NCBI RefSeq assembly: GCF_027887165.1
Contig: NC_077234.1
Location: forward strand, 169,172,388-169,236,387
Source: Monodelphis domestica
Taxonomy: Eukaryota; Chordata; Mammalia; Didelphimorphia; Didelphidae
Length of the DNA: 64,000 nucleotides
Direction of reading: 5' to 3'
The number at the start of each line of letters is the position of its first letter. The stretch's first letter is position 1. A program made the position numbers and the translations under genes. Below the pieces are notes generated by a model, which was given only the letters and a program-made list of their open reading frames with translations, did no database searches and was not told the DNA's origin. Shown here piece after piece: positions 18,493 to 62,084 of the stretch.

Positions 18493-18500
18493 TTATAAGG
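18493..18500 (+). promoter_or_regulatory. TATA box of the micro-exon gene
   Basis: TTATAAGG lies about 50 bp before the chosen ATG (18543). Initiation about 30 bp downstream would fall near 18523-18528 and give a 5' leader of roughly 15-20 nt. This excludes the in-frame ATG at 18510 from the transcript and supports 18543 as the start. Confidence 0.6.
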
Positions 18501-18542
18501 GATGTTGCCATGGGTTCATACACCACAGGTGATACTGACACC

Positions 18543-18621
18543 ATGAGTACTACCAAGATATTCCTCCTTCTTTTCTCAGTGGCCATATTGGCCCTGAGCT
18601 CAGCTCAAACTGAAAATTCGG
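18543..18621 (+). CDS. Exon 1: signal peptide
   Basis: Starts MSTTK, then the hydrophobic core and cleavage region IFLLLFSVAILALSSAQ, then TENS. Likely cleavage is after SSA, leaving Gln first. The ATG has A at -3. Donor is G|GTAAGT, phase 1. The ALSSAQ ending resembles PRB/PRH/PRR4 signal peptides, which are likewise on their own exon. Confidence 0.85.
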
Positions 18622-21600
18622 GTAAGTGGGATACACTGGGAAACAGTAATCATGTTTAGAACTTTGGGATTCATCATTCAAATCAAATAAGGATTTGGGA
18701 AAAGTTATCTTCAATGATTCAGTTAATTTTATTTTCTCAGACTTAGATAATAGAAGGAAGTTATAGTACTACTTCTACAAATAAAAAGTAGCATTTATAA
18801 AATATCTAAAGGCTTGCAAAATATTTTATGTATGATATCATATCTTATTTTTTATAACAACTTCAGGAGGTAAGTGCTATTATTGTCTCCACTTTACAGA
18901 GAAAGGAACTGAGGCTGAGGTAAATGAAAAAGCTTGATTAACTTGCCTAGAAAGCCAAGTAGTATAGCAAGTAAGAGTCTTGGACTTGGAGTCAGGAAGA
19001 GCTGATTCCAAATCCTGCATCAGACATATACTAGCAGAGTGACCCTGTGTCCCAAGTCACTTAGCATCTCTCAGTCTCAGGTTCCTCGTTCATTACATTA
19101 CAGTTAGTCTGTATTTTGATTTTGTAAAATGGAGATAATAATAGCACTTTCTTTCTAAGGTAATTATGAGACTCAAGCAAGATAATATGTGTATAGCATT
19201 TTTGCAATCTTTAAAGGAATATGTACGCATTACCAATTATTAATTATTGTTGTTGTCAAATAACTAGCAAATGCCTAAGTCAGGATTTAAACTCAGATCT
19301 TCCTGACTTCAAATCTAGTACCCTATCCATTTTTCTACATCATCTGCTGATTTCAAATACCTTTCTCTAGCCCTGGGCACAAGCCGAAATTCAGCATCAT
19401 CTTTAAGCAACTGTTGTTTTACTACTATGGAGGTTTTTAATTATGTGAATCAAAATATCAGAATGAAATGGCTAATTCCATCACTTTTCCTGATGATTTC
19501 TGAGACAACAAACCTCTGAAAGTTCACTTGTCTTGATGATTGAATTGTTCATTCCCACCCCCACCCCAATTTGGACATCGGTTAGAGACTTTCATTCTCA
19601 TTGTACCAGTTTTTTTAGATTTATTTCAAATCATTCCCCTTCACATTCTTCAGTCAATAAAATTGGACTACTAACTGTTTTCTGGACATGAACTTTAATT
19701 TTCAGCTTTTGTCCTCATGAATGAAATATACTCAGTTGTCAGCTATTTTATAAAAAAAAATTTTATAAATTGTTATAAACTCCCTAGCTTTCTTCAAGAT
19801 CTGGAACCACAATACTATCATGTAAGTAAGAAGATCCATCAGTAAACAGATCCAGGTCAGCTCCTTCAATTGGAACAGCTTTTAATTCTGACCTAATCTG
19901 CTCTACCAACTTCACTACTTCCTCACATCCATGTAAAGGCTCACCATCCATTGGCAGATCGGGTAACAAAGTAGCTGGATTTAGCAAGATACATCTTTTT
20001 AATGTGATGTTATCATTACATAAGAGAACAATATCATACTTTCACAATCTCTTTACACTCAAGTGTAAACACTTGAATAAGAACTTGTCTCAAAAGTTCC
20101 TCAATCTGGTAAGCGCAATATACTATAAGTGAGGATACCAACACTAAATCTGCTGGTTTCTGCACTAGCAATGTAGCTACAGCAATTCTTATGAGACAGG
20201 GCACCATTCCCCCAACCACAGGATCTAATTCAGAACTATAATAAGCAATGGGCCTGAAATTTGGTCCCAGAGTTTGTGTCAGGACTCCAGAAGCTATTCC
20301 TTTGGTCTCATTTACAAAGAGATGGAATTCTTTGGAATAATCTGGTATTCCTAGCTCTGGAGCAATGAGATTAGACTTTGAGCTTTGCCAGAGCTTGCAT
20401 ATGTTCATATTTGAGAACTAAGGGGTCAGATACTTTATTCCTGGTCAGATCTGTTAGACATTTTGTAATCTCACTATACCCCTGGATCCACTGATGGAAG
20501 AATACTATGGTTCCAAGAATTACTCTTAGCTGCTTTTTTTTGGAGCACTGAACTTTTGTATATCTGATATTCTATTGGGGGAAGTACTCTTATTACTCTT
20601 TTCTAGAACAAACCATAAATACTAAACTCTAGACAAGAATCAAAGTAGTTTGGCCTTAGAAATCTTATGTCCATGCTTATACAATTCACAAAGAAGGATT
20701 TTACTATCACTGAGAGAAACATTGGCACTGAGGGATGTTAGAAGTATATCATCCACACAATACAAAAGCTTACTCATAATAAATATTATGGTTTTAAGAT
20801 CCTTCTTTAATATTTGGGAAAATATACTAGGATATGATTGAGAATTGCTATCTCTATTATTGGACAAGGTTTAGAGGGGAGAAATATTTCCAATTGACTT
20901 CCATCAAAAATTTTTGAGTTGTTCTTCTTAGTAAGCACAATTTCAACCTGGGAAAAATAAGCTTCTACTAGCAATTTAACTAACTTCAAAGGGGTCATCA
21001 GTGTGACCAAGGACCACAAGAAGTATTAAAGGCAGTAGAAATAAATTGCAAATTTTTGATAAATTCTCATTTTATCCACTGAATAATTTTTTCTACTGAA
21101 TCATATTGTTTCAACACTATTCTCCAAATACCTCTATTATCCATTAATTCTATCCCTCTTGACAACCCCTTATTTTCCCTTTTGTTTGTCTATATGGCTG
21201 CCCATAAACCTGCCTCTCTACCTGTAGTTCCTGAATTTGTCCACATCTCTCATTCTAGAACTTTTGGCCATTCATCTTCTTAAAGATAACAACCCAGGAA
21301 TAGTGGGTATCATTGAATTAATCAGACCAAGTAGGAGCTTGTTAAAATGCAATCATTCACTCTATCCAAAGCAAATAAATTTTGAAATGACAATTCCAAA
21401 TTGCTGTTCTATTTAGCCCTCTTTTTAGATGCAATTTTTCTCTTAGTTTCCTTTTTTGCCAATGCTATTGTTCTACATTTTAAAGGCAAAAAGCCTGTCT
21501 GGGAAAAATCGACCTATTATTTTCAATTTAACTAATATTCAACACTTCATGGGAGAGCACAATACACAAAGGAAATCATCAAGGCAATAGAAATCATTTA

Positions 21601-24600
21601 CATATTTTATGGAAACTCTGTTAGTATTCACAGCATAATGCTTTTTTACTCTGATGTAAATAATATTGCTTCAAACCTTTTCTCCAATTCCCTCTTTTTC
21701 AATTGATTCAACCCACATCATAATTGTGATTGTCACCTCTTGGTTTTTCTTGCCTGCAGCCCAAGCACCACAGCAACCTGTAGGTAATTAGCAATCTTTA
21801 TTTCTTCAATCATTGTTTCCTTTCTCATTATTGTTCAAGGAAGGTATCTGATATTCTAGAACACTTGGACATTTTCTCCTTTCAAGAGAGTCACAAATGA
21901 ATCAGTGGCTCATCTTTAACAGAAAGGATCAAATTAATAGGGAGCATTCTCTATTGCCATATCGTATGGGTGGGATACCCAGGCAAATAAATCAGAATTG
22001 CCATCCATTTTTCTAGCTAAGATTTGTGGTTGGGGAATAGTTTCTGTTACCTTCCATCCAAATTTTGGGGGTTTTTCTTCTTAGTTAATGCAGATTCAAT
22101 TGGGCAAAAAAGAGGCTGCAATTTGCAATTTTATTAACTTAAAAGGTGTCCACAGTTGAACAAGAGCCACAAGAAGTGGTCAAGCAGTAGAAATAAATTA
22201 TAAATTTTGGAAAAATTCTATGCTTTTGGCTGAGGAACACTTTTTTTCTATTTCTGTTGTATTTTTTCAACTGTTTTCTCCAAACACCTCTATTTTCCAT
22301 TAATTTTATCTGTATTCTAAATGTCACTCTTTCTTTTTTGTTCTACTAAACCATAACTCCAAATGAAGAACCAGCTCCAGCTCCCGGTAAATAGCAGTCT
22401 TTATGTCGGCAATCATTCTTTTCGGGCTTCTTATTGTCCAAAGGAAGATGTCTCTCATTCTAAAACACTTGAGCACTTTCTTCCTTAAAGAAATCAACCA
22501 ATGAGTCAGTGGCTCATCATTAACAGAAAGGATCAATATTAAATATGTGGTATTCTCTCCTGCCATTGCTTATGCACCAGTTACTCAGGCACATAATTCA
22601 CAATTGATCTCCTTTATTCTGGCCAGCATTTGTGACTAAGGAATAGTTCCTACTGACCTTGATCAAAAATTTTGTCATTGTTCTTTTTAGTAAGCACAAG
22701 TTCAATCCTGAGAAAAAAGAGGCTTCTCCTAGCAATTTCAGTATCTTCCAAAGGGTCATCCCTGCGACCAAGGGTCACAAAAAGTGGTCAGGGCAGTAGA
22801 AATCTCTTACAAATTTTGGGGAAATTCTCTTTTTATTCACTTAATAACTTTTTTCCTACTGAATCATGTTGTTTCAAGCCTATCTTCAAAGCACCTCTAT
22901 TTTCCATTAACTCCATCTCTCTTGACAACACCTTACTTTCCTGTTTGTCTATCTACACAGCTGCCCAAAAGCCACTCTGAGCCAAAGATACCATAAATCC
23001 TTCAAAAGTCTTTCTTTCCTTTCTCCCTGTAGTTCCTGGGCTTGTCAACTTCTCTCATTCTAGGACCTTTGCCCATTCATCTTTTTGAAGACAACCACCC
23101 AGGAATAGTGTGTAATTGTGAATGAGTCTGCCCAAGTAGGAAGTCAATAAGATGCTTCATTCTCTCATTCCAAGGCATATAAATGCTGAAATGAGGACAA
23201 ATAATTAAAAATTGCTGTCCTTCCATAGTCCTTGTTTTAGATACAATTTTTCTCTTAGTTTCCTTTTTTTCCATTTCTCTTGTTCAACACTTAAATGAAA
23301 AAAAAAAAACCTGTGTGGAAAAAATCAACCTATTATGTCCAATTTAATGGCATTCAACCTTCCTGAGGGAGAACAATACACAAAGGCAGTGGCCAAGCCA
23401 GTAGAAAGAAATTAAACATTTGTGGAATCTCTGTTAGAATTCCCAGTATAAAGTTTTTTTTTATCCAAATCATATTGCTTCCACCCTATTCTCCAAATAC
23501 TGCTTTTTCAATTTGTTCAACCCTCACCTTGATTGTGATTCTCTCCTCTTGGTTCTTCTTGCCTGCAGCTGAAAGCCAAGCACCACAGCAATCTGCAGGT
23601 AAGTAGCAGTCTTTATTTCTTCAATCATTGTTTCCTTCCTACTTATTGTCCTAAGGAAGTTGTCTGATATTCCAGAACACTTGGACATTTTCACCCTTCA
23701 AGAGAGCCACCAATGAATCTGTTGCTCATCTTTAACAGAAAGGATCAAATTAATAGGGAGCATTCTCTCTTTCAATAGAGTATGCTTGGGATACTAAGGC
23801 AAATAAATCAGAATTGCCATCCATTTTCCTGGCTAAGATTTGGGGTTGGGGAATAGTTTCTGTTACCTTCCATCCAAATTATGGGGGGTTTTCTTCTTAG
23901 TGAAGGCAGGTTCAATGGGGCAAAAAAGAGGCTTCAATTTACAATTTTACTAACTTGAAAGGTGTCCCCAGTTTGAACAAGAGCCACAAGACATGATCAG
24001 GCAGTAGAAATCAATTATAAATTTTGGAGAAATTCAATTCTCATTGACCAAGGAACATTTCTTTTTCTATTTACATCATATTGTTTCAATGATATTCTCC
24101 AATGACCTCTATTTTCAGTTAATTTTATCCATATTCTAAATGTCATTCTTTCTTTTTTGTGCTACTAACCAACAACTCCAAATGAAGAACCAGCTCCACC
24201 TCCCGGTAAGTAGCAGTTTTTATGTCACAATCATTCTTTACGGGCTCCCTATTCTCCAAAAGGAAGTTGTCTGACATTCCAGACTTGAACACTTTCTTCC
24301 TTTAAGAAATCAACCGATTAATCAGTGGCACATCTTTAACAGAAAGGATCAAGTTAATAGAGAGGATTCTCACTTGCCATAGTGTATGTGTGGGGTACAC
24401 CGGCAAATAATCTAGAATTGCCATCCATTTTTCAGACTAAGAATTGGGGCTGGGGAATAATTTCAATAACCTTCCATCTAAATTTTGGGGGTGTTTCTTC
24501 TTAGTGAACACAGGTTCAATGTGGCAAAAAAGAGACTTCAATTTGCAATTTTGCTAACTTCAAAGGTGTCCCCAGTTTGAACAAGAGCCACAAGACGAGC

Positions 24601-27600
24601 TTAGGCAGTAGATATCTAAAATAATTTTTGGAGAAATTCTATTCTATTTGACAGAGGAACATTTCTTTTTCTATTTCCGTAGTATTTTTTTCAACCGTAT
24701 TCTCCAAGCACCTCTATTTTCCATTAATTTTATCTGTATTCTAAATGTCATTCTTTCTTTTTTGTACTACTAAACAACTCCAAATGAAGAATCAGCTCCA
24801 GCTCCCGGTAAGTAGCAGTCTTTATGTCAGCAATCATTCTTTCTTGTCTTCTTTTGTCCAATGGAAGTTGTCTCATATTCTAGAGCACATGAACACCTTC
24901 CTCCTTAAAGAAATCAACCAATGAGGCAATGGCTCATCATTAACAGAAAGGATCAATATTAAATATGGGGCATTCTCTCCTGCTATTGCTTATGCACCCG
25001 TTACTCATAATTCACAGGCACATAATTCACAATTGATCTCCTTTATTCTGGCCAGCATTTGTGACTAAGGAAGAGTTCCTACTGACCTCGACCAAAAATT
25101 TTGGCATTGTTCTTTTTAGTAAGCACAAGTTCAATCCCAAGAAAAAAGAGGCTTCTACTAGCAATTTCAGTATCTTCCAAAGGGTCATTGGCCTGACCAA
25201 GGGTCACAAAAAGTGATCAGTGCAATAGAAATCTCTTATGAATTTTGGGGAAATCCTCATTTAATTCACTGATTAACTTTTTTTACTGAATCATGTTGTT
25301 TCAAGCCTATTCTCCAAGCACCTGTATTTTCCATGAACTCCATCTCTCTTGACAACCCCTTACTTTCCTGTTTGTCTGTCTACACAGGTGCCCAAAAGCC
25401 ACTCTGAGCCAAAGATACCATAAATCCTTCAAAAGTCTTTCTTTCTTCTCTCCCTGTAGTTTCTGGGCTTGTCAACTTCTCTCATTCTGGGACCTTTGCC
25501 CATTCATCTTTTTGAAGACAACCACCCAGGAATAGTGTGTAATTGTGAATGAGTCTGCCCAAGGAGGAACTAGATAAGATGTTTCATTCTCTCTTTCCAA
25601 ACCATATGAATGATGAAATGAGGACAAATTATTTTAAATTGTTGTCCTTTGATAGCCCTTGTTTTGGATACAATTTTTCACTTTTTCGCGATTTCTCTTG
25701 TTCAACACTTTAATTGAAAAAAAAACTGTCTGGAAAAAATCAACCTATTATGTCCAATTTAATGACATTCAAGCTTCCAGAGAGATCAATACACTAAAGC
25801 AGTGGTCAAGCCAATGGAAATCATTAAAATTTTTGTGGAACCTCTGTTAGAATTCCCAGTATAACTTTTTTTTTATTTACATCATATTGCTTCAACCCTA
25901 TTATCCAAATACTGCTTTTTCAATCAATTCGACCCACATCATGGTTGTGATTCTCTCCTCTTGGTTTTTCTTCCCTGCAGCTGAAAACCAAGCGCCACAG
26001 CAATCTGCAGGTAAGTAGCAATGTTTATTTCTTCAATCATTGTTTCCTTTCTCCTTATTGTCCCAAGGAATGTGTCTGATATTCTAGAATACTTGGACAT
26101 TTTCCCTGTTCAAGAGAGCCACCAATGAATCAGTGGCTCATCTTTAACAGAAAGGATCAAGTTAATAGGGTGCATTCTCTCTTGCCATAGAGTATGTGTG
26201 GGGTACTAAGGCAAATAAATCAGAATTGCCATCCATTTTTTATGGCTACGATTTGTGGCTGGGAAATAGTTTCTCTTACCTTCCTTCCAAATTTTGGGGG
26301 TTTTCATCTTAGTGAATTCAGGTCCAATTGGGCAAAAAAGAGGCTTCAATTTACAATTTTACTAACTTGAAAGGTGTCCCCAGTTTGAACCAGATCCTCA
26401 ATACATGGTCAGGCAGTAGAAATCAATTATAAATTTTGGAGAAATTCTATTCTCATTGACTGAGGAACATTTCTTTTTCTATTTATGTCATATTTTTCAA
26501 CTCTATATTCTCTAAGCACCTCCATTTTCCATTAATTTTATCCATATTCTAAATGTCATTCTTTATTTTTTGTGCTACTAAACAACAATGCCAAATAAAG
26601 AACCAGCTCCAGCTCCAGCTCCTGGTAAGTAGCAGTTTTTATGTCTGCAGTCATTCTTTCCTGGCTTCTTATTATCCAAAGGAAGTTGTCTGACATTCTA
26701 GAGCACTTGAACACTTTCTACCTTAAGGAAATCAACCAATGAATCAGTGGCACATCTGTAACAGAACCTATCAAGTTAAGAGGGAATATTCTCACTTGCC
26801 ATAGTATATGTATGGGGTAAACAGCCAAATAATCCAGAATTGCATCCATTTTTCTGGCTAAAATTTGGAGCTGGGGAATAGTTTGTCTTATCTTCCATTC
26901 AAATTTTGGGGGATTTTCTTCTTATTGAAGCAGGTTTAATTGGGCAAAAAAGAGACTTCAATTTGCCATTTTGCTAAGTTGAAAGGTGTCCCCAGTTTGA
27001 ACAAGAGCCACAAGACTTGGTCAGGCAGTAGAAATCAATCACAAATTTCGGAGAAAATCTATTCTATTTGACAGGGGAACATTTCTTTTTTTATTTCCAT
27101 CATATTTTTTCAACCATATTCTCCAAGCACCTCTTTTTTCCATTAATTTTATCTGTATTCTAAATGACACTCTTTCTTTTTTGTTCTACTAAACAACAAC
27201 TCCAAATGAAGAACCAGCTCCAGCTCCTGGTAAGTAGCAGCCTTTCTGTCGGCAATCATTCTTTCCTGTCTTCTTATTGTCCAAAGGAAGTTGTTTCACA
27301 TTCTAGAACACTGGAAAACTTTCTTCCTTAAAGAAATCAACCAATGAATCAGAGGCTCATCATTAACAGAAAGGATCAATATTAAATACGTGGTATTCTC
27401 TCCTGCCATTGCTTATGCACCAGTTACTCAGGCACATAATTCACAATTGGTCTCCTTTATTCTGGCCAGCATTTGTGACTAAGAAAGTGTTTCTATTGAC
27501 TTCGATCAAAATTTTTGGCATTGTTCTTTTAGTAAGCACAAGTTCAACCATAGAAAAAAGTGGCTTCTACTAGCAATTTCAGTATCTTCCAAAGGGTCAT

Positions 27601-48600: not shown

Positions 48601-51600
48601 ACTCAAGCACATAATTCACAATTGGTCTCCTTTATTCTGGTCAGAATCTGTGACTAAGGAAGAGTTCCTACTGACTTCAATCAAAAATTTTGGCATTGTT
48701 CTTTTTAGTAAGCACAAGTTCAATCCCAAGAAAAAAGAGGCTTCTACTAGCACTTTCAGTATCTTCCAAAGGGTCATCCCTGCGACCAAGGGTCACAAAA
48801 AGTGGTCAGGGCTGTAGAAATCTCTTACAAGTTCTGGGGAAATCCTCATTTTTTTCACTGATTTACTTTTTCCTACTGAATCATGTTGTTTCAACCTTAT
48901 TCTCCAAGCACCTCTATTCTCCATTAACTCCATCTCTCTTGACAACTCCTTGCTTTCCTGTTTGTCTGGCTACACAGCTGCCCAAAAGCCACTCTTAGCC
49001 GAAGTTACCATAAATCCTCCAAAAGCCTTTCTTTCCACTCTTTCTGTCATTCCTGGGCTTGTCCACTTCTCTCTTTCTAGGAACTTTCCCCATTCATCTT
49101 CTTAAACCCAGGAATAGTGGCCAATGTTGAATGAGTCTGCCCAAGTAGGAAGTCGATAAGATGCTTCATTCTCTCTTTCCAAGGCATATAAATGCTGAAA
49201 TGAGGACAAATAATTTCAGTTTACTGTCCTTTGCTAGACCTTGTTTTGGTTACAATTTTTCTCTTAGTTTCCTTTTTCGTAATTTCGCTTGTTCAGTACT
49301 TTAATGGCAAAAAAACAAACAAACAAAAAAAAACCTGTCTAGAAAAAATCAACCTATTATGTTAAATTTAACTGACATTCAAGCTTCCTGAGAGAGAACA
49401 ATATGAAAGGCAGTGGTCAAGCCAATAGAAATCATTTACAAATTTCATGGAACCTCTGTTAGTATTCCCAGCATAACTTTTTTTTTATTTACATCATACT
49501 GCTTCAACCTTTTTCTCCAAATGCCTCTTTTTCAATCAATTCGGCCCACATCATGGTTGTGATTCTCTCCTCTTGGTTTTTCTTCCCTGCAGCTGAAAAC
49601 CAAGCACCACAGCAATCTGCAGGTAAGTAGCAGTTTTATTTCTTCAATCATTGTTTCCTTTCTCATTATTGTCCCCAGGAAGGTGCCTCCCATTCTAGAA
49701 TACTTGGACATTTCTGTCTTTCAAGATAGCCACCAATGAATCATTGGCTCATCTTTAACAGAAAGGATCAATTAATACCGAGCATTCTCTCTTCCCATAG
49801 AGTATGGGTGGCGTACTCAGGATAATAAATCAGAATTGCCATCTATTTTTCTAGCTAAGATTTAGGGTTGGGGAATAGTTTCTGTTACCTTCCATCCAAA
49901 TTATGGGGGGTTTCTTCTTAGTGAAGGCAGGTTCAATGGGGTAAAAAAGAGGCTTCAATTTGCAATTTTTCTAACATGAAAGGTGTCCCCAGTTTGAACA
50001 AGAGCCACAATATTTGGTTAGGCAATAGAAATTATTTATAAATTTTGGAGAAATTCTATTCTAATTGACTGAGGAACATTTATTTTTCGATTTACGTCCT
50101 ATTGTTTCAAAGATATTCTCCAAGAGCCTCTACATTGCAAGAATTTTATCAATAATCTAAATGTCATTCTTTCTTTTTTGTACTACTAAACAACAACTCC
50201 AAATGAAGAACCTGCTCCAGCTCCAGCTCCAGCTCCCGGTAAGTAGCAGTCTTTCTGTCCATCAGCCAATCTTTCCTGTATTCTTATTGTCCAAAAGGTG
50301 TTGTCTCTCATTGTAGAACACTTGAACACTTTTTTTCCTTAAAGAAAGCAACCAATGAATCAATGGCTAATTATTAATAGAAAGGATCAAGTTAATAGGG
50401 AGTATTCTCACTTTCCATAGAGTATGCATGGTGTACACAGGCAAATAATCCAGAATTGCCATCCATTTTTCAGGCTCAGATTTGGGGCTGGGCAATAGAT
50501 TCTCTTACCTTCTATCCAAAATTGGGGGGGGTTCTTCTTAGTAAATGAAGGTTTAATGGGGCAAAAAAGAGGCTTCAATTTGCCATTTTGCTAAGTTGAA
50601 AGGTGTCCCCAGTTTGAACAAGAGCCACAAGACTTGGTCAGGCAGTAGAAATCAATTATAAATTTTGGAGAAATTCTATTTATATTGACCGAGAAACATT
50701 TCTTTTTCTATTTACATCATATTGTTTCAATGATATTCTCCAATGACCTCTATTTTCAATTAATTTCATCCATATTCTAAATGCCATTCTTTCTTTTTTT
50801 TTTTCTACTAAACAACAACTCCAAATACAGAACCAGCTCCAGCTCCAGCTCCTGGTAAGTAGCAGTCTTTATGTTGGCAGTCATTCTTTCCTGTCTTCTT
50901 ATTGTCTAAAGGAAGTTGTCTGACATTCTAGAGCACTTGAACACTTTCTTCCTTAATGAAATCAACTGATTAATCAGTGGCACATCTTTAACAGAAAAGA
51001 TCAAGTTAATAGGGAATATTCTCACTTGCCATAGCATATGAATTGGGTACTCAGGAAAATAATACAGAATTGCCATCCATTTTTCAGGCTCAGATTTGGG
51101 GCTGGGCAATAGAATCTCTTACCTTCCATCCAATGTTTTGGGGGTTTTTTTTCTTACTGAAAGATCATTCAATCGGTCAAAAAAGAGGCTTCAATTTGCC
51201 ATTTTGCTAAGTTGAAAGGTGTCCCCAGTTTGAACAAGAGCCACAAGACTTGGTCAGGCAGTAGAAATCAATTATAAATTTTGGAGAATTCTATTCTATT
51301 CCACAGAGGAACATTTCTTTTTCTATTTCTGTAGTATTTTTTCAACCTTATTCTCCAAGCATCTCTATTCTCCATTAACTCCATCTCTCTTGACAACTCC
51401 TTGCTTTCCTGTTTGTCTGGCTACACAGCTGCCCAAAAGCCACTCTGAGCCACAGTTACAGTAAATCCTTCAAAACTCTTTCTTTCTTCTCTCCCTGTAG
51501 TTTCTGGGCTTGTCAACTTCTCTCATTCTAGGACCTTTGCCCATTCATCTTCTTGAATACAACCACCCAGGAATAGTGTGTAATTGTGAATGAGTCTGCC

Positions 51601-54600
51601 CAAGTAGGAAGTCAATAAGATGCTTCATTCTCACTTTCCAACGCATATAAATGCTGAAATGAGGACAAATAATTTCAGTTTACTGTCCTTTGCTAGACAT
51701 TGTTTTGGTTACAATTTTTCTCTTAGTTTCTTTTTCCTCATTTCTCTTGTTCAACACTTTGGGGAAAAAAAAAAAACCTGTCTGGAGGAAATCAACCTAT
51801 TATGTTCAATTTAACTGACATTCTAGCTCACTGAGAGAACAATATGAAAGGCAGTGGTCAAGCCAATAGAAATCATTTACAAATTTCATGGAACCTCTGT
51901 TAGTATTCCCAGCATAAGTTTTTTTTTTTATTTACATCATACTGGTTCAACCTTTTTCTCCAAATGCCTCTTTTTCAATCAATTCGACCCACATCATTGT
52001 TGTGATTCTCTCTTCTTGGTTTTTCTTCCCTTTAGCTGAAAACCAAGAACCACAGCAATCTGCAGGTAAGTAGCAGTCTTTATTGCTTCAATCATTGTTT
52101 CCTTTCTCCTTACTGTCCCCAGGAAATGCCTGATATTCTAGAACACTTGGACATTTTCCCTGTTCAAGAGAGCCACCAATGAATCAGTGGCTCATCTTTA
52201 ACAGAAAGGATCAAGCTAATAGGGTACATTCTCTCTTGCCATAGAGTATGTGTGGGGTACTAAGGAAAATAAATCAGAATTGCCATCCATTTTTTATGGA
52301 TACGATTTGTGGCTGGGAAATAGTTTCTGTTACCTTCTATCCAAATTTTGGGGCTTTTTCTTCTTAGTGAATTCAGGTTCAATTGGGCCAAAAAGAGGCT
52401 TCAATATGCAATATTAATAATTTAAAGGTGTCCCCAATTTGAACAAGAACCAAGAAATCAATTATAAATTTAGGAGAAATTCTATTTATATTGACCGAGA
52501 AACATTTCTTTTTCTATTTACATCATATTGTTTCAATGATATTCTCCAATGACCTCTATTTTCAATTAATTTCATCCATATTCTAAATGCCATTCTTTCT
52601 TTTTTTTTCTACTAAACAACAACTCCAAATAAAGAACCAGCTCCAGCTCCAGCTCCTGGTAAGTAGCAGTCTTTATGTTGGCAGTCATTCTTTCCTGTCT
52701 TCTTATTGTCTAAAGGAAGTTGTCTGACATTCTAGAGCACTTGAACACTTTCTTCCTTAATGAAATCAACTGATTAATCAGTGGCACATCTTTAACAGAA
52801 AAGATCAAGTTAATAGGGAGTATTCTCACTTGCCATAGCATATGAATGGGGTACTCAGGAAAATAATACAGAATTGCCATCCATTTTTCAGGCTCAGATT
52901 TGGGGCTGGGCAATAGAATCTCTTACCTTCCATCCAAAGTTTTGGGTTTTTTTTTTTCTTACTGAAAGATCATTCAATCGGTCAAAAAAGAGGCTTCAAT
53001 TTGCCATTTTGCTAAGTTGAAAGGTGTCCCCAGTTTGAACAAGAGCCACAAGACTTGGTCAGGCAGTAGAAATCAATTATAAATTTTGGAGAAATTCTAT
53101 TCTATTCCACAGAGGAACATTTCTTTTTCTATTTCTGTAGTATTTTTTCAACCGAATTCTCCAAGCACCTCTATTTTCCATTAATTTTATCTATATTCTA
53201 AAAGTCATTCTTCCTTTTTTTTACTACTAAACAACAACTCCAAATGAAGAACCAGCTCCAGCTCCCGGTAAGTAGCAGTCTTTTTGCCTGCAATCATTCT
53301 TTCCTGTCTTCTTATTGTCCAAAGGAAGTTGTCTCTCATTCTAAAACACTTGAACACTATCTTCCTTGAGGAAATCAACCAATGAATCTGTGGCTCATCA
53401 TTAACAAAAAGGATCAATATTAAATATGTGGTATTCTCTCCTGCCATTGCTTCTGCACTGGTTACTCAAGCACATAATTCACAATTGGTCTCCTTTATTC
53501 TGGTCAGAATCTGTGACTAAGGAAGAGTTCCTACTGACTTCAATCAAAAATTTTGGCATTGTTCTTTTTAGTAAGCACAAGTTCAATCCCAAGAAAAAAG
53601 AGGCTTCTCCTAGCACTTTCAGTATCTTCCAAAGGGTCATCCCTGCGACCAAGGGTCACAAAAAGTGGTCAGGGCTGTAGAAATCTCTTACAAGTTCTGG
53701 GGAAATCCTCATTTTTTTTACTGATTTACTTTTTCCTACTGAATCATGTTGTTTCAACCTTATTCTCCAAGCACCTCTATTCTCCATTAACTCCATCTCT
53801 CTTGACAACTCCTTGCTTTCCTGTTTGTCTGGCTACACAGCTGCCCAAAAACCACTCTTAGCCGAAGTTACCATAAATCCTTCAAAAGCCTTTCTTTCCA
53901 CTCTTCCTGTCATTCCTGGGCTTGTCCACTTCTCTCTTTCTAGGAACTTTCCCCATTCATCTTCTTAAACCCAGGAATAGTGGCCAATGTTGAATGAGTC
54001 TGCCCAAGTAGGAAGTCGATAAGATGCTTCATTCTCTCTTTCCAAGGCATATAAATGCTGAAATGAGGACAAATAATTTCAGTTTACTGTCCTTTGCTAG
54101 ACATTGTTTTGGTTACAATTTTTCTCTTAGTTTCCTTTTTCATCATTTCTCTTGTTCAGTGCTTTATTGGCAAAAAAAAAAAAAACCTGTCTGGAGAAAA
54201 TCAACCTTCTATGTTTAATTTTACTGACATTCTAGCTTCCTGAGAGAGAACAATATGAAAGGCATTGGTCAAGCCAATAGAAATCATTTACAAATTTCAT
54301 GGAACCTCTGTTAGTGCTCCCAGCATAACTTTTTTTTTTATTTACATCATACTGCTTCAACCTTTTTCTCTAAATGCCTCTTTTTCAATCAATTCGACCC
54401 ACATCATGGTTGTGATTCTCTCCTCTTGGTTTTTCTTCCCTGCAGCTGAAAACCAAGCACCACAGCAATCTGCAGGTAAATAGCAGTTTTATTTCTTCAA
54501 TCATTGTTTCCTTTCTCATTATTGTCCCCAGGAAGGTGCCTCCCATTCTAGAATACTTGGACATTTCTGTCTTTCAAGAGAGCCACCAATGAATCATTGG

Positions 54601-57600
54601 CTCATCTTTAACAGAAAGGATCAATTAATACCGAGCATTCTCTTCTCCCACAGAGTATGGGTGGGGTACTCAGGATAATAAATCAGAATTGCCATCTATT
54701 TTTCTAGCTAAGATTTGGGGTTGGGGAATAGTTTCTGTTACCTTCCATCCAAATTATGGGGGGTTTTCTTCTTAGTGAAGGCAGGTTCAATGGAGTAAAA
54801 AAGAGGCTTCAATTTGCAATTTTTCTAACATGAAAGGTGTCCCCAGTTTGAACAAGGGCCACAATATTTGGTTAGGCAATAGAAATTAATTATAAATTTT
54901 GGAGAAATTCTATTCTAATTGACTGAGGAACATTTATTTTTCGATTTACGTCCTATTGTTTCAAAGATATTCTCCAAGAGCCTCTACTTTGCATTAATTT
55001 TATCCATATTCTAAATGTCATTCTTTCTTTTTTGTACTACTAAAAAACAACTCCAAATGAAGAACCTGCTCCAGCTCCAGCTCCAGCTCCAACTCCAGCT
55101 CCAGCTCCAGCTCCAGCTCCCGGTAAGTAGCAGTCTTTCTGTCCGGCAATCATTCTTTCCTGTATTCTTATTGTCCAAAAGGTGTTGTCTCTCATTGTAG
55201 AACACTTGAACACTTTTTTCCTTAAAGAAAGCAACCAATGAATCAATGGCTCATTATTAACAGAAAGGATCAAGTTAATAGGGAGCATTCTCTCTTTCTA
55301 TAGAGTATGCATGGGGTACACAGGCAAATAATCCAGAATTGCCATCCATTTTTCTGGCTAAGATTTGAGGCTGGGCAATAGTTTCTCTTACCTTCCATCC
55401 AAATTTTGGCGTTTTTTTTCTTCTTAGTTAATGCAGGTTTAATGGGGCAAAAAGGAGGCTTCAATTTGCCATTTTGCTAACTTGAAAGGTGTCCCCAGTT
55501 TGAAAAAGAGCCACAAGACTTGGGCAGGCAGTAGAAATCAATTATATATTTTGAAAAAATTATAGTCTTTTGAAAGAAGAACATTTCTTTTTCTATTTCT
55601 GTCGTATTTTTTTCAACCATATTCTCCAATCACTTCTATTTTCCATTCATTTTTTCCATATTCTAAATGTCATTTTTTCTTTTCTGTACTACTGAACAAC
55701 AACTCCAAATGAAGAACCAACTCCAGCTCCCGGTAAGTAGCAGTCTTTTTGTCTGCAATCATTCTTTCCTGTCTTCTTATTGTCCAAAGTATGTTTCTCA
55801 GAGCACTTCAACAGTTTCTTCCTTAAAGAAACCATCTGATTAATTAGTGGCACATCGTTAACAGAAAGGATCAAGTTAATAGGGAGTATTCTCACTTGCC
55901 ATAGCATATGTGTGGTGTACACAGGCAAATAATCCAGAATTGCCATTCATTTTTCAGGCTCAGATTTCGGCCTGGGGGATAATTTCTCTTACCTTCCATC
56001 CAAATTTTGGGTGGTTTTCTTCTTAGAGAATGTAGTTTCAATGGGGAAAAAAAGAGGCTTCAATTTGCAATTTTACTAACTTGAAAGGTATCCCCAGTTT
56101 GAACAAGAGTGACAATATGTTGTCAGGCAATAGAAATCAATTATTAATTTTGGAGAAATTCTATTTTATTTGACTGAGGAACATTTATTTTTCTATTTAC
56201 GTCATATTTTTTTCAACTGAAATTCTCCTAACAACTCTATTTTCCATTAATTATATCCATATTCTAAATGTCATTCTTTCCTTTTTGTATTACTAAACCA
56301 CAACTCCAAATGATGAACCAGCTCCAGTTCCCAGTAAGCTGCAGTCTTTATGTTGGCAATTATTCTCTCCTGTCTTCTTATTGTCCAATGGAAGTTGTCT
56401 GACATTCTAGAACACTTGAACGCTTTCTTCCTTAAAGAAATCAACCAATGAATCAGTGACTCATCTTTAACAGAAAGCTTCAATTAAATATGTTACATTT
56501 TCTCTTGTCATAGCATCTGCACTGGGTACTCAGGAGCACAATTCATAATTGGTGTCCTTTTTTCTGGCCAACATTTGTGGCTGGGGAATAGTTTCTATTG
56601 ACTTCCATCAATAAAACACATAATGATTGACATACAAATATTTTGAGTTTATATTTCAGAGAGGTAGAGTGTAGGAACGAGGGACAGGAAGATTTGATAG
56701 CTTAACCCACTTTTTAAGACACTATCTAATAATCCTATCTTAACTGCAATAATCTCCTAAGGGTCAGTCCAAAAGATAGGTCAGAGATCTTATGTATAGA
56801 ATCTTTCGGCAAGAAGAGGCTGCAGTCCAGATGAGATGTCCTAGATGGTCCTGAGGGGTACTTGAGCTCCCAATTTTGTCCCTTAGTCCACCTAAAGGTA
56901 TTGAAAGTCTCCTATCCACTCCCACTTCAGAGGACTGCTTGTAGGATGATCCAAAGATGTCCCAGGAGCACTGATCAGCCACCTCCAGATTTTTTGGTAG
57001 CTCCCATCCCCCAAGAAAGTCCAACAATCTCCTCACCTGTTTGGAATCTCTCCCCTGCCAGCTCTGAAGATTCTCTGTCTGTCAATCATTCTTATGCACT
57101 CAGCATTACATTGCAACACATAAGAGAGACCCAGAGCCATAGGAATTGATTAACCCAATAAAAATTTGTCCCTAATTTTTAGGAAGTTCTCTTAGTTTTC
57201 ATTGAATAATATTTATTTCTATTTACATTATACTGCTTCTTCCAGATCCTCCTCTTTTTCAATTTGTTCTTCCCCCATTGTTAATACCATTCTTTCCTTT
57301 TCTTTTTTCTAGCTAAAAGAAGATATCATTCATTTTTCTGTAAGTAGCAGTCTGTGCCTCAAAAGTCTTTCTTTCCTTTCTCTGTTTAGTTCCTGGATCT
57401 TATCTCTTATTTTAGAACACTTGGGCTTTCATGTCCTTAAAGAAAACTACCCAGAAACAGTAGATAATAATGTACTGCTGAATATAAAGATTGCTCTCCT
57501 TACAGAGAAGCACTAGGAAACAGTGGGTAATAATGAATTGCCTTTTCAGTTAAGTAAAGATGCATCATTATCTCTTGCCAAAGTGTATATATTGAATATT

Positions 57601-59785
57601 GAGCACAGTTAATTCCAAATTGAGGTCTTATTTTCTGTCCCTGCTTTGGAGAAACCAAAAGTTTGTTTTAGTTTCCATTATTGTCTTTTGTGTTCTTCTT
57701 AGGATGTTAAATTTCTGTCAGGGAAAAAGGGGGCTCATAATTTCAGTTTAACAAACCTTGAAGGCTTTGTTGGAGCCCAACAGACATAGGAAGGGCTTCA
57801 TACAATAGAAATTGGATAAAATTTTTAAGAAATTCTATTAATTTTCATTGAATAACAATTTTTTATTTGTCATACTATTTCAACCATATCCTCCCAGTAT
57901 ATCTTTTTCAGTTAATTCTACCCCCTTGTATATGTCATTCTTTCCTTTTCATTTTTCTGTAGAGTAGGCCCAAACCCACAACTTGCTCCATCAGAATGAA
58001 TGAAACAGTTCATCCCTCAACAGTCTTTCTTTCATTTCTTCTTGTAGTCCCTGGAGCATGTCTCTCATTCTTGAACACTCGGGCATTTTTAGTCTTAAAG
58101 ATAACTACCCAAAATGCAGGGAGGAATGGAAAGAAAAGATCAAGTTAAGATGCATCATTCTCTCCTGCCATAGCATATGTATTGAGTACCAAGTCCTTTT
58201 TTTTGACCCTGGTTTGAGAAAAAAAATTACACTAATTTCTGTCGACTTTTTTGGTAGTGTTCCTCTTAGTAGGTGAACATTTTGACAGGAAAAAAATGAG
58301 ACTTGTACTTGCCATTTAACCAAATGTATTGGGTACTGAAGACAGTTAATTCCAAATTGGTGTCCTTTTTTTCTGACCCTGGTTTGAGAAAAAAAAATTA
58401 TACTAGTTTCTGACATTGACTTTTTTGGTGGTGTTCTTATTAGGTGAAAGTTTGGACAGGGAAAAATGAGGCTTGTACTTGCCATTTAACTAACTTTGTA
58501 GGTTTCCTAGAGAAACTAATAGTCAGAGGAAGTGCTCTTTACAATGGAAAATTGGTCACAAAATTTTAGGAAATTCTCTTAAGTTTTCTTTAAACAATAT
58601 TTTTTTCTACTTAAATCATTTTGTTTTAACCCTGTCCTCCAAGTACCTCTTTTTCAGTTAATTCTACCTCTTTGGTAAGTTTCATTCTTTCCTTTTAATT
58701 TTTCTTCACAGTTTTCAGCAAGAAAAGAGCTCAATCTCGAGGTAAGTAAGCAGCCTTACCTTAAAGAGTTTTTCTTTCCTTACTCCATTTAGTTCCTGGA
58801 TCTTATCTCTCATTCTAGAACACTTGGACTTTTATGTTCTTAGAGAAAACCACCCAGAAACAGAGGTTAATAATGAGCTGCTGTGGACAAGAGTTTTCAA
58901 GTTAAGATGCATCATTCTCTCTTGCCATAGCATATGTATTGAGTACTGAAGACAGGTAACTCCAAATTGATGTTCTTTATTCTGACCATGGCTAGGGGAA
59001 GAATGGTTGTATTAGTGTCCATCATTGACCTTTTTGGTGTTCTTCTTCTTAGTAGGTAACAATTCAGTCAGGGGGAAAGAAGGCTTATCATTGCAATTTA
59101 ACTAACTTTGAAGGCTACATTAGAGAGACCAGTAACAGTAGGAAGTGCTCTGTGCAATAGCGATTGGTCACAATTTTTAGGCAATTCTATTTGTTTTATT
59201 GAATAACTTTCTTTTCTATTTAAATCATACTGCTTCAGTTAAATCCTCTAACTACCTCTTTTTAGTTTATTCTACCTTCATAGTAAATGTCATTCTTTCC
59301 TTTTCCTTTCTCTAACCAGGAGCCCTCAGCCAAAAGCCTGCTCCATCTCAACCTAAGTCAAATATATTCCTCAACAATCTCTCTTTCTTCCCACATTGTA
59401 GCCCCTTGACATTTTCTCTCATTTGAAATCACTCTTGCCTTTATAACCTTAAAGATGAGTACCCAGAAATAATAGGGAAGAATAATTAGTCATATGGTCA
59501 AATTCAGATGCAATATTCCTTCTTGCCATAGCACATTGTCCTCTTTTTCCAACAGGGAATTTCCCATATCAAAAGCCCAGTCATTTTGTCTTATTCAATA
59601 AATTGGTCTTTGTTTCTAGCTGTCTTTCTTCCTTCATCTCTCTGTGTTTCTTCATATCCTTTTCTCTAACTTTCTCTTTGTTTCTACATGCCTCTGTCTC
59701 TTTTTCTCTTTCATATTTTGGTCTTTTGATAAATGGTACTTCAGAAGCAGAAGAGGGAAAGAAAGAAATGAAGTATCAAGACTAA
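18543..59785 (+). CDS. Predicted secreted A/P/E/Q-rich repeat protein encoded by about 47 micro-exons (whole gene span)
   Basis: Role: not proven. It is probably a secreted, intrinsically disordered protein. The signal peptide ends ALSSAQ like mammalian salivary proline-rich proteins (PRB/PRH/PRR4 family), which bind dietary tannins and calcium in saliva. That link is inference from the signal peptide and composition. Sequence: a signal exon, then 15 class A exons (AENQ(A/E)PQQSA) and 28 class B exons (EPAPAP with extra AP steps), then basic exons at 57313 and 58712 and a terminal exon at 59745 with stop and AATAAA. Every junction is phase 1 and every internal exon is a multiple of 3, so the frame stays open: 1293 nt, 430 residues. 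Mature protein would start at Gln, which could cyclise. The repeat body has Glu but no Lys or Arg; the tail is charged. Exons make up only about 3% of the span. The terminal exon choice is uncertain (see 59320 and 60749). Confidence 0.75.
18785..19345 (+). mobile_element. MAR1/MIR-like SINE interrupted by a THER1/MIR-like SINE (intron 1)
   Basis: The outer element has AGCATTTATAAAATATCTAA-type sequence and the CACTTTACAGAGAAAGGAAC block (18788-18950). It resumes at about 19258 with CAGGATTTAAACTCAGATCT. Between them (about 18957-19255) lies a second MIR-family SINE with GGAGTCAGGAAGAGCTGATT, AGTCACTTAGCATCTCTCAG and TGTAAAATGGAGATAATAAT. One old SINE is nested in another. Confidence 0.7.
19760..20880 (-). 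mobile_element. ERV1 (gammaretrovirus-like) pol remnant, antisense in intron 1
   Basis: Minus-strand translation gives recognisable gammaretrovirus-like pol parts in order from right to left: the reverse-transcriptase core around the YVDD-type motif (about 20800-20640), the connection region (FLG..FHQWIQGYSEITK, about 20530-20450), FVNETKGIASGVLTQTLGP (about 20310) and the start of RNase H (LNPATLLP then DLFTDGSSYL, about 19985-19830). No LTRs, gag or env were recognised. It is a broken partial copy and old. Confidence 0.85.
21760..21783 (+). CDS. Exon 2, class A variant (AQAPQQPV)
   Basis: 24 nt, acceptor TGCCTGCAG, donor GTAATT, phase 1-1. The shortest A exon and the first of the array; it lacks the usual EN pair. 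Confidence 0.75.
   Translation, partial: PKHHSNL
22369..22386 (+). CDS. Exon 3, class B (EPAPAP)
   Basis: 18 nt, acceptor AATGAAG after a CTACTAAAC branch-like motif, donor GTAAAT, phase 1-1. One B monomer expected after it is missing here. Confidence 0.75.
23569..23598 (+). CDS. Exon 4, class A (AESQAPQQSA)
   Basis: 30 nt, acceptor TTGCCTGCAG, donor GTAAGT, phase 1-1. Ser replaces the usual Asn at position 3. Confidence 0.8.
24188..24205 (+). CDS. Exon 5, class B (EPAPPP)
   Basis: 18 nt, acceptor AATGAAG, donor GTAAGT. Carries a PPP variant of the AP repeat. Confidence 0.75.
24790..24807 (+). CDS. Exon 6, class B (ESAPAP)
   Basis: 18 nt, acceptor AATGAAG, donor GTAAGT. The first Pro is replaced by Ser. 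Confidence 0.75.
25981..26010 (+). CDS. Exon 7, class A (AENQAPQQSA)
   Basis: 30 nt, acceptor TTCCCTGCAG, donor GTAAGT, phase 1-1. The Ala codon is GCG, a silent difference from other copies. Confidence 0.8.
26601..26624 (+). CDS. Exon 8, class B (EPAPAPAP)
   Basis: 24 nt, acceptor AATAAAG, donor GTAAGT; one extra AP hexanucleotide step. Confidence 0.75.
27212..27229 (+). CDS. Exon 9, class B (EPAPAP)
   Basis: 18 nt, acceptor AATGAAG, donor GTAAGT, phase 1-1. Confidence 0.75.
28405..28434 (+). CDS. Exon 10, class A (AENQEPQQSA)
   Basis: 30 nt, acceptor CCCTGTAG, donor GTAAGT. First copy with Glu at position 5, which later alternates with the Ala form. Confidence 0.8.
29004..29027 (+). CDS. 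Exon 11, class B (EPAPAPAP)
   Basis: 24 nt, acceptor AATAAAG, donor GTAAGT. Confidence 0.75.
29610..29627 (+). CDS. Exon 12, class B (EPAPAP)
   Basis: 18 nt, acceptor AATGAAG, donor GTAAGT. Start of the first 8-monomer higher-order unit. Confidence 0.75.
30799..30828 (+). CDS. Exon 13, class A (AENQAPQQSA)
   Basis: 30 nt, acceptor TTCCCTGCAG, donor GTAAGT. Confidence 0.8.
31404..31433 (+). CDS. Exon 14, class B (EPAPAPAPAP)
   Basis: 30 nt, acceptor AATGAAG, donor GTAAGT; two extra AP steps. Confidence 0.75.
32615..32644 (+). CDS. Exon 15, class A (AENQEPQQSA)
   Basis: 30 nt, acceptor TTCCCTTCAG, donor GTAAGT. Confidence 0.8.
33214..33237 (+). CDS. Exon 16, class B (EPAPAPAP)
   Basis: 24 nt, acceptor AATAAAG, donor GTAAGT. 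Confidence 0.75.
33829..33846 (+). CDS. Exon 17, class B (EPAPAP)
   Basis: 18 nt, acceptor AATGAAG, donor GTAAGT. Start of higher-order copy 2. Confidence 0.75.
35032..35061 (+). CDS. Exon 18, class A (AENQAPQQSA)
   Basis: 30 nt, acceptor TTCCCTGCAG, donor GTAAGT. Confidence 0.8.
35648..35677 (+). CDS. Exon 19, class B (EPAPAPAPAP)
   Basis: 30 nt, acceptor AATGAAG, donor GTAAGT. Confidence 0.75.
36273..36296 (+). CDS. Exon 20, class B (EPAPAPAP)
   Basis: 24 nt, acceptor AATACAG (a stronger CAG acceptor than the AAG forms), donor GTAAGT. Confidence 0.78.
37476..37505 (+). CDS. Exon 21, class A (AENQEPQQSA)
   Basis: 30 nt, acceptor CCCTTTAG, donor GTAAGT. Confidence 0.8.
38076..38099 (+). 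CDS. Exon 22, class B (EPAPAPAP)
   Basis: 24 nt, acceptor AATAAAG, donor GTAAGT. Confidence 0.75.
38691..38708 (+). CDS. Exon 23, class B (EPAPAP)
   Basis: 18 nt, acceptor AATGAAG, donor GTAAGT. Start of higher-order copy 3. Confidence 0.75.
39886..39915 (+). CDS. Exon 24, class A (AENQAPQQSA)
   Basis: 30 nt, acceptor TTCCCTGCAG, donor GTAAGT. Confidence 0.8.
40502..40531 (+). CDS. Exon 25, class B (EPAPAPAPAP)
   Basis: 30 nt, acceptor AATGAAG, donor GTAAGT. Confidence 0.75.
41124..41147 (+). CDS. Exon 26, class B (EPAPAPAP)
   Basis: 24 nt, acceptor AATACAG, donor GTAAGT. Confidence 0.78.
42326..42355 (+). CDS. Exon 27, class A (AENQEPQQSA)
   Basis: 30 nt, acceptor CCCTTTAG, donor GTAAGT. 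Confidence 0.8.
42926..42949 (+). CDS. Exon 28, class B (EPAPAPAP)
   Basis: 24 nt, acceptor AATACAG, donor GTAAGT. Confidence 0.78.
43539..43556 (+). CDS. Exon 29, class B (EPAPAP)
   Basis: 18 nt, acceptor AATGAAG, donor GTAAGT. Start of higher-order copy 4. Confidence 0.75.
44734..44763 (+). CDS. Exon 30, class A (AENQAPQQSA)
   Basis: 30 nt, acceptor TTCCCTGCAG, donor GTAAGT. Confidence 0.8.
45350..45379 (+). CDS. Exon 31, class B (EPAPAPAPAP)
   Basis: 30 nt, acceptor AATGAAG, donor GTAAGT. Confidence 0.75.
45972..45995 (+). CDS. Exon 32, class B (EPAPAPAP)
   Basis: 24 nt, acceptor AATACAG, donor GTAAGT. Confidence 0.78.
47174..47203 (+). CDS. Exon 33, class A (AENQEPQQSA)
   Basis: 30 nt, acceptor CCCTTTAG, donor GTAAGT. 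Confidence 0.8.
47774..47797 (+). CDS. Exon 34, class B (EPAPAPAP)
   Basis: 24 nt, acceptor AATACAG, donor GTAAGT. Confidence 0.78.
48387..48404 (+). CDS. Exon 35, class B (EPAPAP)
   Basis: 18 nt, acceptor AATGAAG, donor GTAAGT. Start of higher-order copy 5. Confidence 0.75.
49593..49622 (+). CDS. Exon 36, class A (AENQAPQQSA)
   Basis: 30 nt, acceptor TTCCCTGCAG, donor GTAAGT. Confidence 0.8.
50209..50238 (+). CDS. Exon 37, class B (EPAPAPAPAP)
   Basis: 30 nt, acceptor AATGAAG, donor GTAAGT. Confidence 0.75.
50831..50854 (+). CDS. Exon 38, class B (EPAPAPAP)
   Basis: 24 nt, acceptor AATACAG, donor GTAAGT. Confidence 0.78.
52036..52065 (+). CDS. Exon 39, class A (AENQEPQQSA)
   Basis: 30 nt, acceptor CCCTTTAG, donor GTAAGT. 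Confidence 0.8.
52635..52658 (+). CDS. Exon 40, class B (EPAPAPAP)
   Basis: 24 nt, acceptor AATAAAG, donor GTAAGT. Confidence 0.75.
53250..53267 (+). CDS. Exon 41, class B (EPAPAP)
   Basis: 18 nt, acceptor AATGAAG, donor GTAAGT. Start of the last, partial higher-order copy. Confidence 0.75.
54446..54475 (+). CDS. Exon 42, class A (AENQAPQQSA)
   Basis: 30 nt, acceptor TTCCCTGCAG. Its donor is GTAAAT rather than GTAAGT, so splicing may be slightly weaker. Confidence 0.78.
55063..55122 (+). CDS. Exon 43, expanded class B (60 nt, AP repeat)
   Basis: The longest repeat exon. It encodes E followed by nine PA or PT steps and a final P (20 residues, one Thr near the middle). It arose by expansion of the CCAGCT hexanucleotide. 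Acceptor AATGAAG, donor GTAAGT. Likely polymorphic in length. The opposite strand reads as a WS or GA repeat and is a shadow. Confidence 0.8.
55715..55732 (+). CDS. Exon 44, class B (EPTPAP)
   Basis: 18 nt, acceptor AATGAAG, donor GTAAGT. The branch-like motif is weakened (CTACTGAAC). Confidence 0.7.
56316..56332 (+). pseudogene. Class B slot with lost acceptor
   Basis: The sequence reads like a B exon (EPAPVP in phase 1), but the acceptor AAG is ATG here, so the usual 3' splice site is gone. The donor is shifted to A|GTAAGC. It probably does not enter the mRNA. Confidence 0.6.
56616..57123. mobile_element. Solitary LTR-like insertion inside an intron of the gene
   Basis: A 492-bp insert (56624-57115) starts TG and ends CA. 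It is flanked on both sides by ACACATAA (56616-56623 and 57116-57123), and array intron sequence resumes afterwards. TG/CA ends suggest a solitary LTR. An 8-bp duplication is longer than usual for LTR elements and may be a shorter one extended by chance, or indicate a hAT-type DNA element. No coding content. Confidence 0.55.
57313..57339 (+). CDS. Exon D1: basic micro-exon (AKRRYHSFF)
   Basis: 27 nt, acceptor TTTTTTCTAG, donor T|GTAAGTAGCAG, phase 1-1. First Lys/Arg-rich exon after the acidic repeat body. The KRR could be a proprotein cleavage site (inference). It occupies an A-type slot in a diverged monomer. Confidence 0.6.
57963..57996 (+). pseudogene. Class C-like slot, no usable donor
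   Basis: After TTTTTCTGTAG the sequence resembles the 59320 exon (CAACTTGCTCCATCAGAA) but runs into TGA in phase and has no GTAAGT donor. I treat it as dead or at best a rare terminal exon. Confidence 0.5.
58160..58500 (+). repeat. ~170-bp tandem duplication in an intron
   Basis: The block with GACCCTGGTTTGAGAAAAAA at 58205 recurs at 58375, 170 bp later, with matching flanks (TGTACTTGCCATTTAAC in both). It duplicates part of a monomer intron without an exon. Confidence 0.7.
58712..58741 (+). CDS. Exon D2: basic micro-exon (FFSKKRAQSR)
   Basis: 30 nt, acceptor TTCTTCACAG, donor G|GTAAGT, phase 1-1. The first residue depends on the upstream exon (Phe after D1, Val after a B exon). It contains KKR and ends SR. 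Confidence 0.65.
59320..59426 (+). CDS. Possible alternative terminal exon E
   Basis: Acceptor TCTCTAACCAG. In phase 1 it reads GALSQKPAPSQPK and continues open to a TGA at 59424. The usual donor position is destroyed (CCTAAGTCAAAT instead of a GTAAGT match), so it cannot easily be internal. An AATAAA at 59597-59602 could end such a transcript. It resembles the decayed class C slots and may be their source or relative. Whether it is used is unclear. Confidence 0.4.
59745..59785 (+). CDS. Terminal exon F with stop (EAEEGKKEMKYQD)
   Basis: Acceptor TACTTCAG; a second in-frame acceptor lies 6 nt further (AAGCAG), so the tail could start EAEEG or EEG. Phase 1 from exon D2 gives a charged 13-residue end and TAA at 59783. 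It is followed by AATAAA at 59828, which makes it the simplest terminal exon. Confidence 0.6.
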
Positions 59786-59827
59786 AAATGTCAAATGCCT
59801 ATTCAAAAGATTTGAATCTGAAACACA

Positions 59828-59833
59828 AATAAA
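59828..59833 (+). terminator. Polyadenylation signal AATAAA
   Basis: Canonical AATAAA 43 nt after the exon F stop; cleavage expected near 59845-59860. Confidence 0.6.
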
Positions 59834-60079
59834 GAACCGCTGCTTCTTAGCCATGCCTTGCAGCTTTATAGATACCCTCTCTGCTTCTTATTCCAATGCA
59901 CTCAACTAAGACCTGACTTCAAAATCAGTCATATCACTTATTACAGGGAGAGAGGACAAGAAGATATAGAAAGATTGGCAAGATGTTTTTATGCTTTCTC
60001 TGTCCCTAGATGGAAGGAATTGATGTGGATTGACTTCTATTTTATTGACTTATTTGTTGTTTACTTTACTATTTGTTAG

Positions 60080-61975: not shown

Positions 61976-62084
61976 AATGGACCAGTAAATAGACACTAGG
62001 TGTTTATTAGGCATCCAATGGAAGGCTTGAGATCTAATACAAAAGACTATAAATGATCACTAGTGCAAATATTAATAATATGGA

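Follow-up and report, generated by a model that had tools for sequence, protein, structure and literature searches.

A nested array of micro-exon cassettes in Monodelphis domestica that probably encodes a secreted protein related to salivary proline-rich proteins

A 64,000-nt window of the Monodelphis domestica genome (NC_077234.1, positions 169,172,388 to 169,236,387 of the forward strand; all coordinates below are those of the window) contains a nested array of short exon cassettes that we read as a protein-coding marsupial gene, most probably divergent kin to the salivary proline-rich protein (PRP) genes, with a rough probability of 0.72. The best explanation of the array includes a predicted product that would be secreted, disordered, acidic and rich in Ala, Pro, Glu and Gln.

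Gene model and predicted product

In the model that we rebuilt from the sequence, all features lie on the forward strand. The signal-peptide exon MSTTKIFLLLFSVAILALSSAQTENS (18543-18621, 79 nt) ends in phase 1 at a GTAAGT donor, and a candidate TATA box (TATAA, 18494-18498) lies 49 nt 5' of its ATG. An upstream ATG at 18510-18512 is in frame with the ATG at 18543 and is probably 5' of the transcription start if the TATAA at 18494 is used.

Downstream of the signal exon, we resolve 43 micro-exons, 15 of type A and 28 of type B, every one of which is phase 1-1 and a multiple of three in length. The first A exon, A1, has 24 nt (21760-21783), while the other 14 have 30 nt each (23569-23598, 25981-26010, 28405-28434, 30799-30828, 32615-32644, 35032-35061, 37476-37505, 39886-39915, 42326-42355, 44734-44763, 47174-47203, 49593-49622, 52036-52065 and 54446-54475). 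The B exons are more variable in size: 11 are of 18 nt (22369-22386, 24188-24205, 24790-24807, 27212-27229, 29610-29627, 33829-33846, 38691-38708, 43539-43556, 48387-48404, 53250-53267 and, as the final micro-exon of the 43, 55715-55732), 11 of 24 nt (26601-26624, 29004-29027, 33214-33237, 36273-36296, 38076-38099, 41124-41147, 42926-42949, 45972-45995, 47774-47797, 50831-50854 and 52635-52658), five of 30 nt (31404-31433, 35648-35677, 40502-40531, 45350-45379 and 50209-50238), and one is a hexamer-expanded exon of 60 nt (55063-55122). The array is followed by tail exon T1 (57313-57339, 27 nt), which contains KRR, tail exon T2 (58712-58741, 30 nt), which contains KKR, and a terminal exon, T3, whose coding part (59320-59426) closes with TGA at 59424-59426. 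AATAAA signals are found at 59597-59602 and again at 59828 and 60175.

The joined exons specify a conceptual product of 452 aa with a repeat of the type AENQAPQQSAEPAPAPAP, to which each micro-exon contributes 6-20 residues. When a 22-aa signal is removed, at a cleavage site that is assumed from the likeness to PRPs and has no prediction tool behind it, the mature product has 430 aa and a pI of 4.05, with 133 Pro, 123 Ala, 49 Glu, 48 Gln and a single Gly. The rebuilt exon table bears out the gene model of the initial annotation: the number and phase of the exons, the stop and the polyA signal agree, as do the acidic 430-residue product and the coding share of about 3%, for which we count 1,359 nt within ~41 kb.

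Splice sites and reading frame

All 43 micro-exons are preceded by AG and followed by GT. The near-consensus donors that had been claimed for them are present throughout, with GTAAGT in 40, GTAAAT in two (B at 22369-22386 and A at 54446-54475) and GTAATT in one (A1). On the forward strand between 21201 and 56700, GTAAGT occurs 40 times, and all 40 occurrences are micro-exon donors; between 1 and 18500, there are three. Acceptors read CAG (10) or TAG (5) in the A exons and AAG (22) or CAG (6) in the B exons. Each of the 28 B exons has a TACTRA upstream and begins at the first AG past it.

Although the coding frame of the joined micro-exons has 0 stops, as the initial annotation had stressed for the 41-kb span, the other two forward frames have 1 and 19, and the three reverse-strand frames have 0, 1 and 0. 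Because the 43 micro-exons comprise 15 distinct sequences (6 A and 9 B) and most alternative frames contain almost as few stops, frame openness is weak evidence on its own, and we rejected it as proof of coding. The retention of splice sites and the lower number of substitutions in the B exons provide better evidence.

Slippage of the CCAGCT hexamer shifts B length by six and preserves both the frame and the phase of the AGs, and every AG inside the 28 B exons is in frame. A shifted B acceptor would thus trim a few residues and leave the protein unbroken. It counts against the gene reading that the acceptor is AAG in 22 of the 28 B exons and that in-frame AGs follow closely within the exon. 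By count from the exon table, 28 of the 49 Glu residues hinge on use of the first acceptor.

Nested duplication and decayed cassettes

The tandem array (21213-56615) is built by duplication at three tiers: an exon-plus-intron cassette of ~600 bp, a 2.42-kb A-B-B-D unit, and a 4.85-kb pair of units. Four successive 4.85-kb pairs, which open with the A exons at 35032, 39886, 44734 and 49593, are 99.1-99.5% identical to each other, whereas the pair at 25981 shows 90.6-90.7% identity with these four. Two classes of unit, with 97-99% or more identity, make up the stretch between 28405 and 54445, and unit types alternate from 25981 onward between those with NQAP and those with NQEP A exons. The first three units are 80-90% identical to the rest, and their splice borders are still intact. 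Units are 2394-2444 bp long with the exception of two (1809 and 1816 bp), among them the unit of the B exon at 31404-31433, from which a ~600-bp cassette is missing with the frame kept. Cassettes can be gained or lost in this way with the frame intact because all junctions are in phase 1. It speaks for the gene reading that, among 350 pairwise and non-independent gaps in the introns of 9 B cassettes, only 6.6% are divisible by three.

Introns between A and B and between two B exons measure 569-595 nt (~580 nt). Where one unit passes into the next, the intron between the final B and the following A (1171-1188 nt) spans two cassettes, since the exon of the fourth cassette, D, is decayed. We find 14 D remnants between 22961 and 53885, with starts at 22961, 25388, 27803, 30201, 32010, 34420, 36872, 39282, 41721, 44130, 46569, 48978, 51429 and 53841. 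The acceptor AG is present in 13 of the 14, GTAAGT in none, and an in-frame TGA in seven. Five remnants have an out-of-frame GTAAAT, the same hexamer that serves two accepted exons as donor, at 32 nt and behind the in-frame TGA. A non-consensus GTTAC is kept in 12 of the 14, and in 11 of these it lies at 26 nt and out of frame; in the remnant at 27803, it would give 24 nt, and the acceptor AG is lost. With GTAAGT absent, GTAAAT out of frame, GTTAC mostly so and TGA in half of the copies, we rejected the idea that D cassettes still act as exons. The 13 kept acceptor AGs and the five GTAAAT nevertheless count against the gene reading, since splicing of such a remnant into the transcript would introduce a TGA.

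Diverged cassette DNA extends beyond the array in both directions. Within intron 1, 20880-21759 is 72.9% identical to 25068-25980, and cassette DNA runs through the 3' exons as well. T3 probably became terminal by loss of its donor, as the donor-aligned place reads CTAAGT. Near 56333, a cassette with a decayed exon no longer has the acceptor AG seen in the related B cassettes and retains GTAAGC, another near 57963 is without a donor, and faint cassette traces are seen at 60145-60399, past the first two polyA signals.

Substitutions in exons and flanks

We counted substitutions on cassette trees, took the expectation from the flanks and calculated Poisson P values. In the B cassettes, the exon and donor have 7 substitutions against 22.0 expected (P 0.0002), and none of 37 non-overlapping flank windows is equally low. 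The A exon and donor have 8 against 16.5 expected (P 0.016), with 2 of 24 such windows equally low, and A and B pooled have 15 against 38.5 expected (P 1.4e-5). The picture is less clear with windows that include the acceptor and may overlap the exon: for A, 128 of 918 are at or below the core, and for B, 39 of 925. Constraint on the B exons is fairly solid, while that on the A exons taken alone is weak. A deficit is seen in the decayed D remnants as well (11 substitutions against 18.6 expected, P 0.041), so part of the deficit may be regional.

Relationship to salivary PRP genes

Salivary PRPs are usually described as having Pro/Gly/Gln-rich repeats. The initial annotation had set the array apart from PRP genes as carrying their repeats within one large exon, a contrast that is fair for the repeat region and misses that the signal exon is PRP-like. 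Aligned with the human PRP N-terminus, the signal-exon product scores 57, compared with 43 for the best full shuffle and 47 for the best signal-only shuffle (2000 each). With the 22-aa removal, the first split codon here falls at mature residue 5. In human PRB1, it is residue 22, which with a 16-aa signal is mature residue 6 (legend in PMC3235478). Both the PRP-type signal peptide and the early split codon are thus present, and from what is given in PMC3235478, human PRP genes likewise have a short first coding exon with a codon split just past the signal. PRH1/2 and PRB1-4 also resemble the array in encoding a secreted repeat protein with a similar signal peptide and in repeat-based length polymorphism.

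The repeat region differs. According to the same part of PMC3235478, human PRB repeats are 20-21 residues long, with several per exon and one to three exons, whereas here the repeats are spread over 43 exons of 6-20 residues each. The product is rich in Ala and Glu and nearly glycine-free (Gly 1/430), and it has neither a Pro/Gly/Gln-rich composition nor several repeats per exon. A Pfam search with the 452-aa product returned 0 families up to E 1, in a run that had no PRP as positive control. Because the signal exon and the place of the split codon resemble those of human PRPs, we favour a PRP-like gene that has diverged in marsupials; as the composition and the layout of the repeat exons depart from the usual description, membership in the family is likely rather than proven. 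The link is drawn from a short signal peptide and one intron position. Salivary PRPs that bind tannins are cited for some herbivorous Marsupialia in PMC7548203.

Other searches yielded no trustworthy relative. No protein matched residues 1-60 at E <= 1 among the 963 candidates of the collection searched. The whole product gave 18 matches among 7997 candidates scored (best 1.7e-10); 15 of these have no local BLASTP alignment and three cover 6% of the query, and we read all 18 as matches in A/P/E composition. No PDB chain matched the first 72 residues, and Rfam and tRNA searches found nothing.

Comparable gene designs

A signal exon followed by many small, symmetric exons of the same phase between long introns is the design that we observe here, and the earlier statement that no described gene has it does not hold, as three groups of genes share it in part. 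The MEGs of Schistosoma mansoni, as described in PMC10526429, encode secreted proteins with a signal peptide and resemble the array in having very short exons between long introns (10-20 exons of 6-81 bp, mostly multiples of three); they differ in belonging to an unrelated lineage and in having mostly 15-bp exons, and alternative splicing is reported for them. The aphid bicycle genes, as presented in PMC9168663, are secreted-protein genes with many small exons, and one of them, the M. sacchari megacycle, reaches 118 exons in ~100 kb and seemingly grew by internal tandem duplications. They share with the array the signal peptide, the strings of small same-phase exons and the internal tandem duplication; they differ in phase (2, versus 1 here) and in sequence, and near-identical higher-order DNA repeats, present here, go unmentioned for them in that text. 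Mammalian caseins form the third group: by PMC12470106, exon duplication in CSN1S1 and CSN1S2 has yielded several 18-24 bp exons in genes for gland-secreted proteins, including seven 24-bp exons in ruminant CSN1S1, whereas these genes have 16-21 exons and a comparable tandem array is not described there. What is unusual here is the number of micro-exons for a mammalian gene, together with the nested, partly homogenised higher-order repeats. A literature search on marsupial PRP genes with such exons, exon-repeat salivary genes and tandem micro-exon genes, judged by title and abstract opening and with subscription journals mostly outside its scope, brought up no such marsupial gene and no account of this organisation.

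Alternative explanations

The most serious competing interpretation keeps the gene and changes its family: a secreted repeat gene of milk, semen, skin or mineralised tissue, whose signal peptide would resemble that of PRPs by convergence. We regard this as unlikely, though less so than any other alternative. The AENQAPQQSAEPAPAPAP repeat is without PPQGG motifs of the PRP type, and there is no Pfam match; however, the signal exon outscores every shuffle, and caseins and other SCPP genes have phase-0 junctions, compared with phase 1 here. In favour of this alternative, alpha-s1-casein is a precedent for a gland gene gaining strings of 24-bp exons (PMC12470106).

A decaying or non-coding macrosatellite, in which the DNA is amplified with the exons of a formerly functional gene as passengers and transcripts either skip the array (signal to tail, in frame) or are lacking because the gene is silent, is in our estimate rather improbable. 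The 99.1-99.5% identity of the 4.85-kb repeats does look like satellite-style homogenisation, an open frame is cheap in CCAGCT hexamers, the consensus donor is absent from 14 of 14 D cassettes, and A-exon constraint is weak with the D remnants depressed as well. Against this, the splice borders of A and B exons are intact in 43 of 43 cases, including the first three units that are 80-90% identical to the rest, and substitutions in the B exon and donor are one third of the expectation. The same near-identity of the four 4.85-kb repeats, and of the two unit classes between 28405 and 54445 (97-99% or more), could also suggest that copies were falsely multiplied in the assembly. We consider such an artefact very improbable: the first three units differ from the rest by 10-20% and have the same design, and even if 28405-54445 (32 micro-exons) were collapsed to one unit per class (6 exons), 17 micro-exons would be left.

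Other elements in the window

Within intron 1, a retrovirus-like RNase H fragment on the reverse strand (20034-20417) matches Pfam RT_RNaseH_2 with E 2.6e-5, its 24.6 bits being below the 29.8 cut-off. A 170-aa open stretch on the reverse strand (1781-2293) is without a Pfam match and resembles the C-terminus of LINE-1 ORF2. An inverted match of 84% between 62050-62213 and 777-940, across the ends of the window, is probably a transposable element. Copies of a SINE head motif, which we take to be of marsupial type, occur at 18988-19014, 19284-19310 and 61692-61718 with 3 mismatches each (0 in 100 shuffles), which points to a marsupial, while a second SINE motif is absent.

Proposed mechanism and implications

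Under the preferred reading of a PRP-like gene, the repeat region would have grown by ~600-bp exon-plus-intron cassettes, then by 2.42-kb blocks of four cassettes, and then by 4.85-kb pairs of blocks. Unequal crossing-over in the introns could add or remove exons with the frame unbroken, allowing the product to lengthen. Such exchange would be frame-neutral because junctions share a phase and neighbouring introns are homologous, and exon number could therefore drift, or selection could use it to set protein length. The transcript would be spliced in an exocrine gland and the product secreted, probably into saliva, where, as a disordered chain with many binding sites, it may bind polyphenols from the diet, or else mineral and bacteria. 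Polyphenol binding appears the likeliest role, and binding to mineral or bacteria would come second. The basic tail (KRR, KKR) could serve as a convertase site. A bolder proposal, which we find tentative and somewhat short of an even bet, is that the satellite-like higher-order repeats are themselves coding, such that cassettes homogenised at three tiers, with in-frame gain, loss and A-B skipping, would form a length ratchet and a source of many salivary-binder isoforms.

MEG-type genes are easily overlooked by annotation, as noted in PMC10526429, and micro-exon genes such as this one would be easily missed as well. If our reading is true, a mammal builds a PRP-like repeat protein through duplication of intron-flanked micro-exons, in a design convergent with the secreted-protein genes of schistosomes and aphids. 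The array would then make testable both the recognition of 18-nt exons by the splicing machinery and the evolution of a coding gene under satellite-like unequal exchange.
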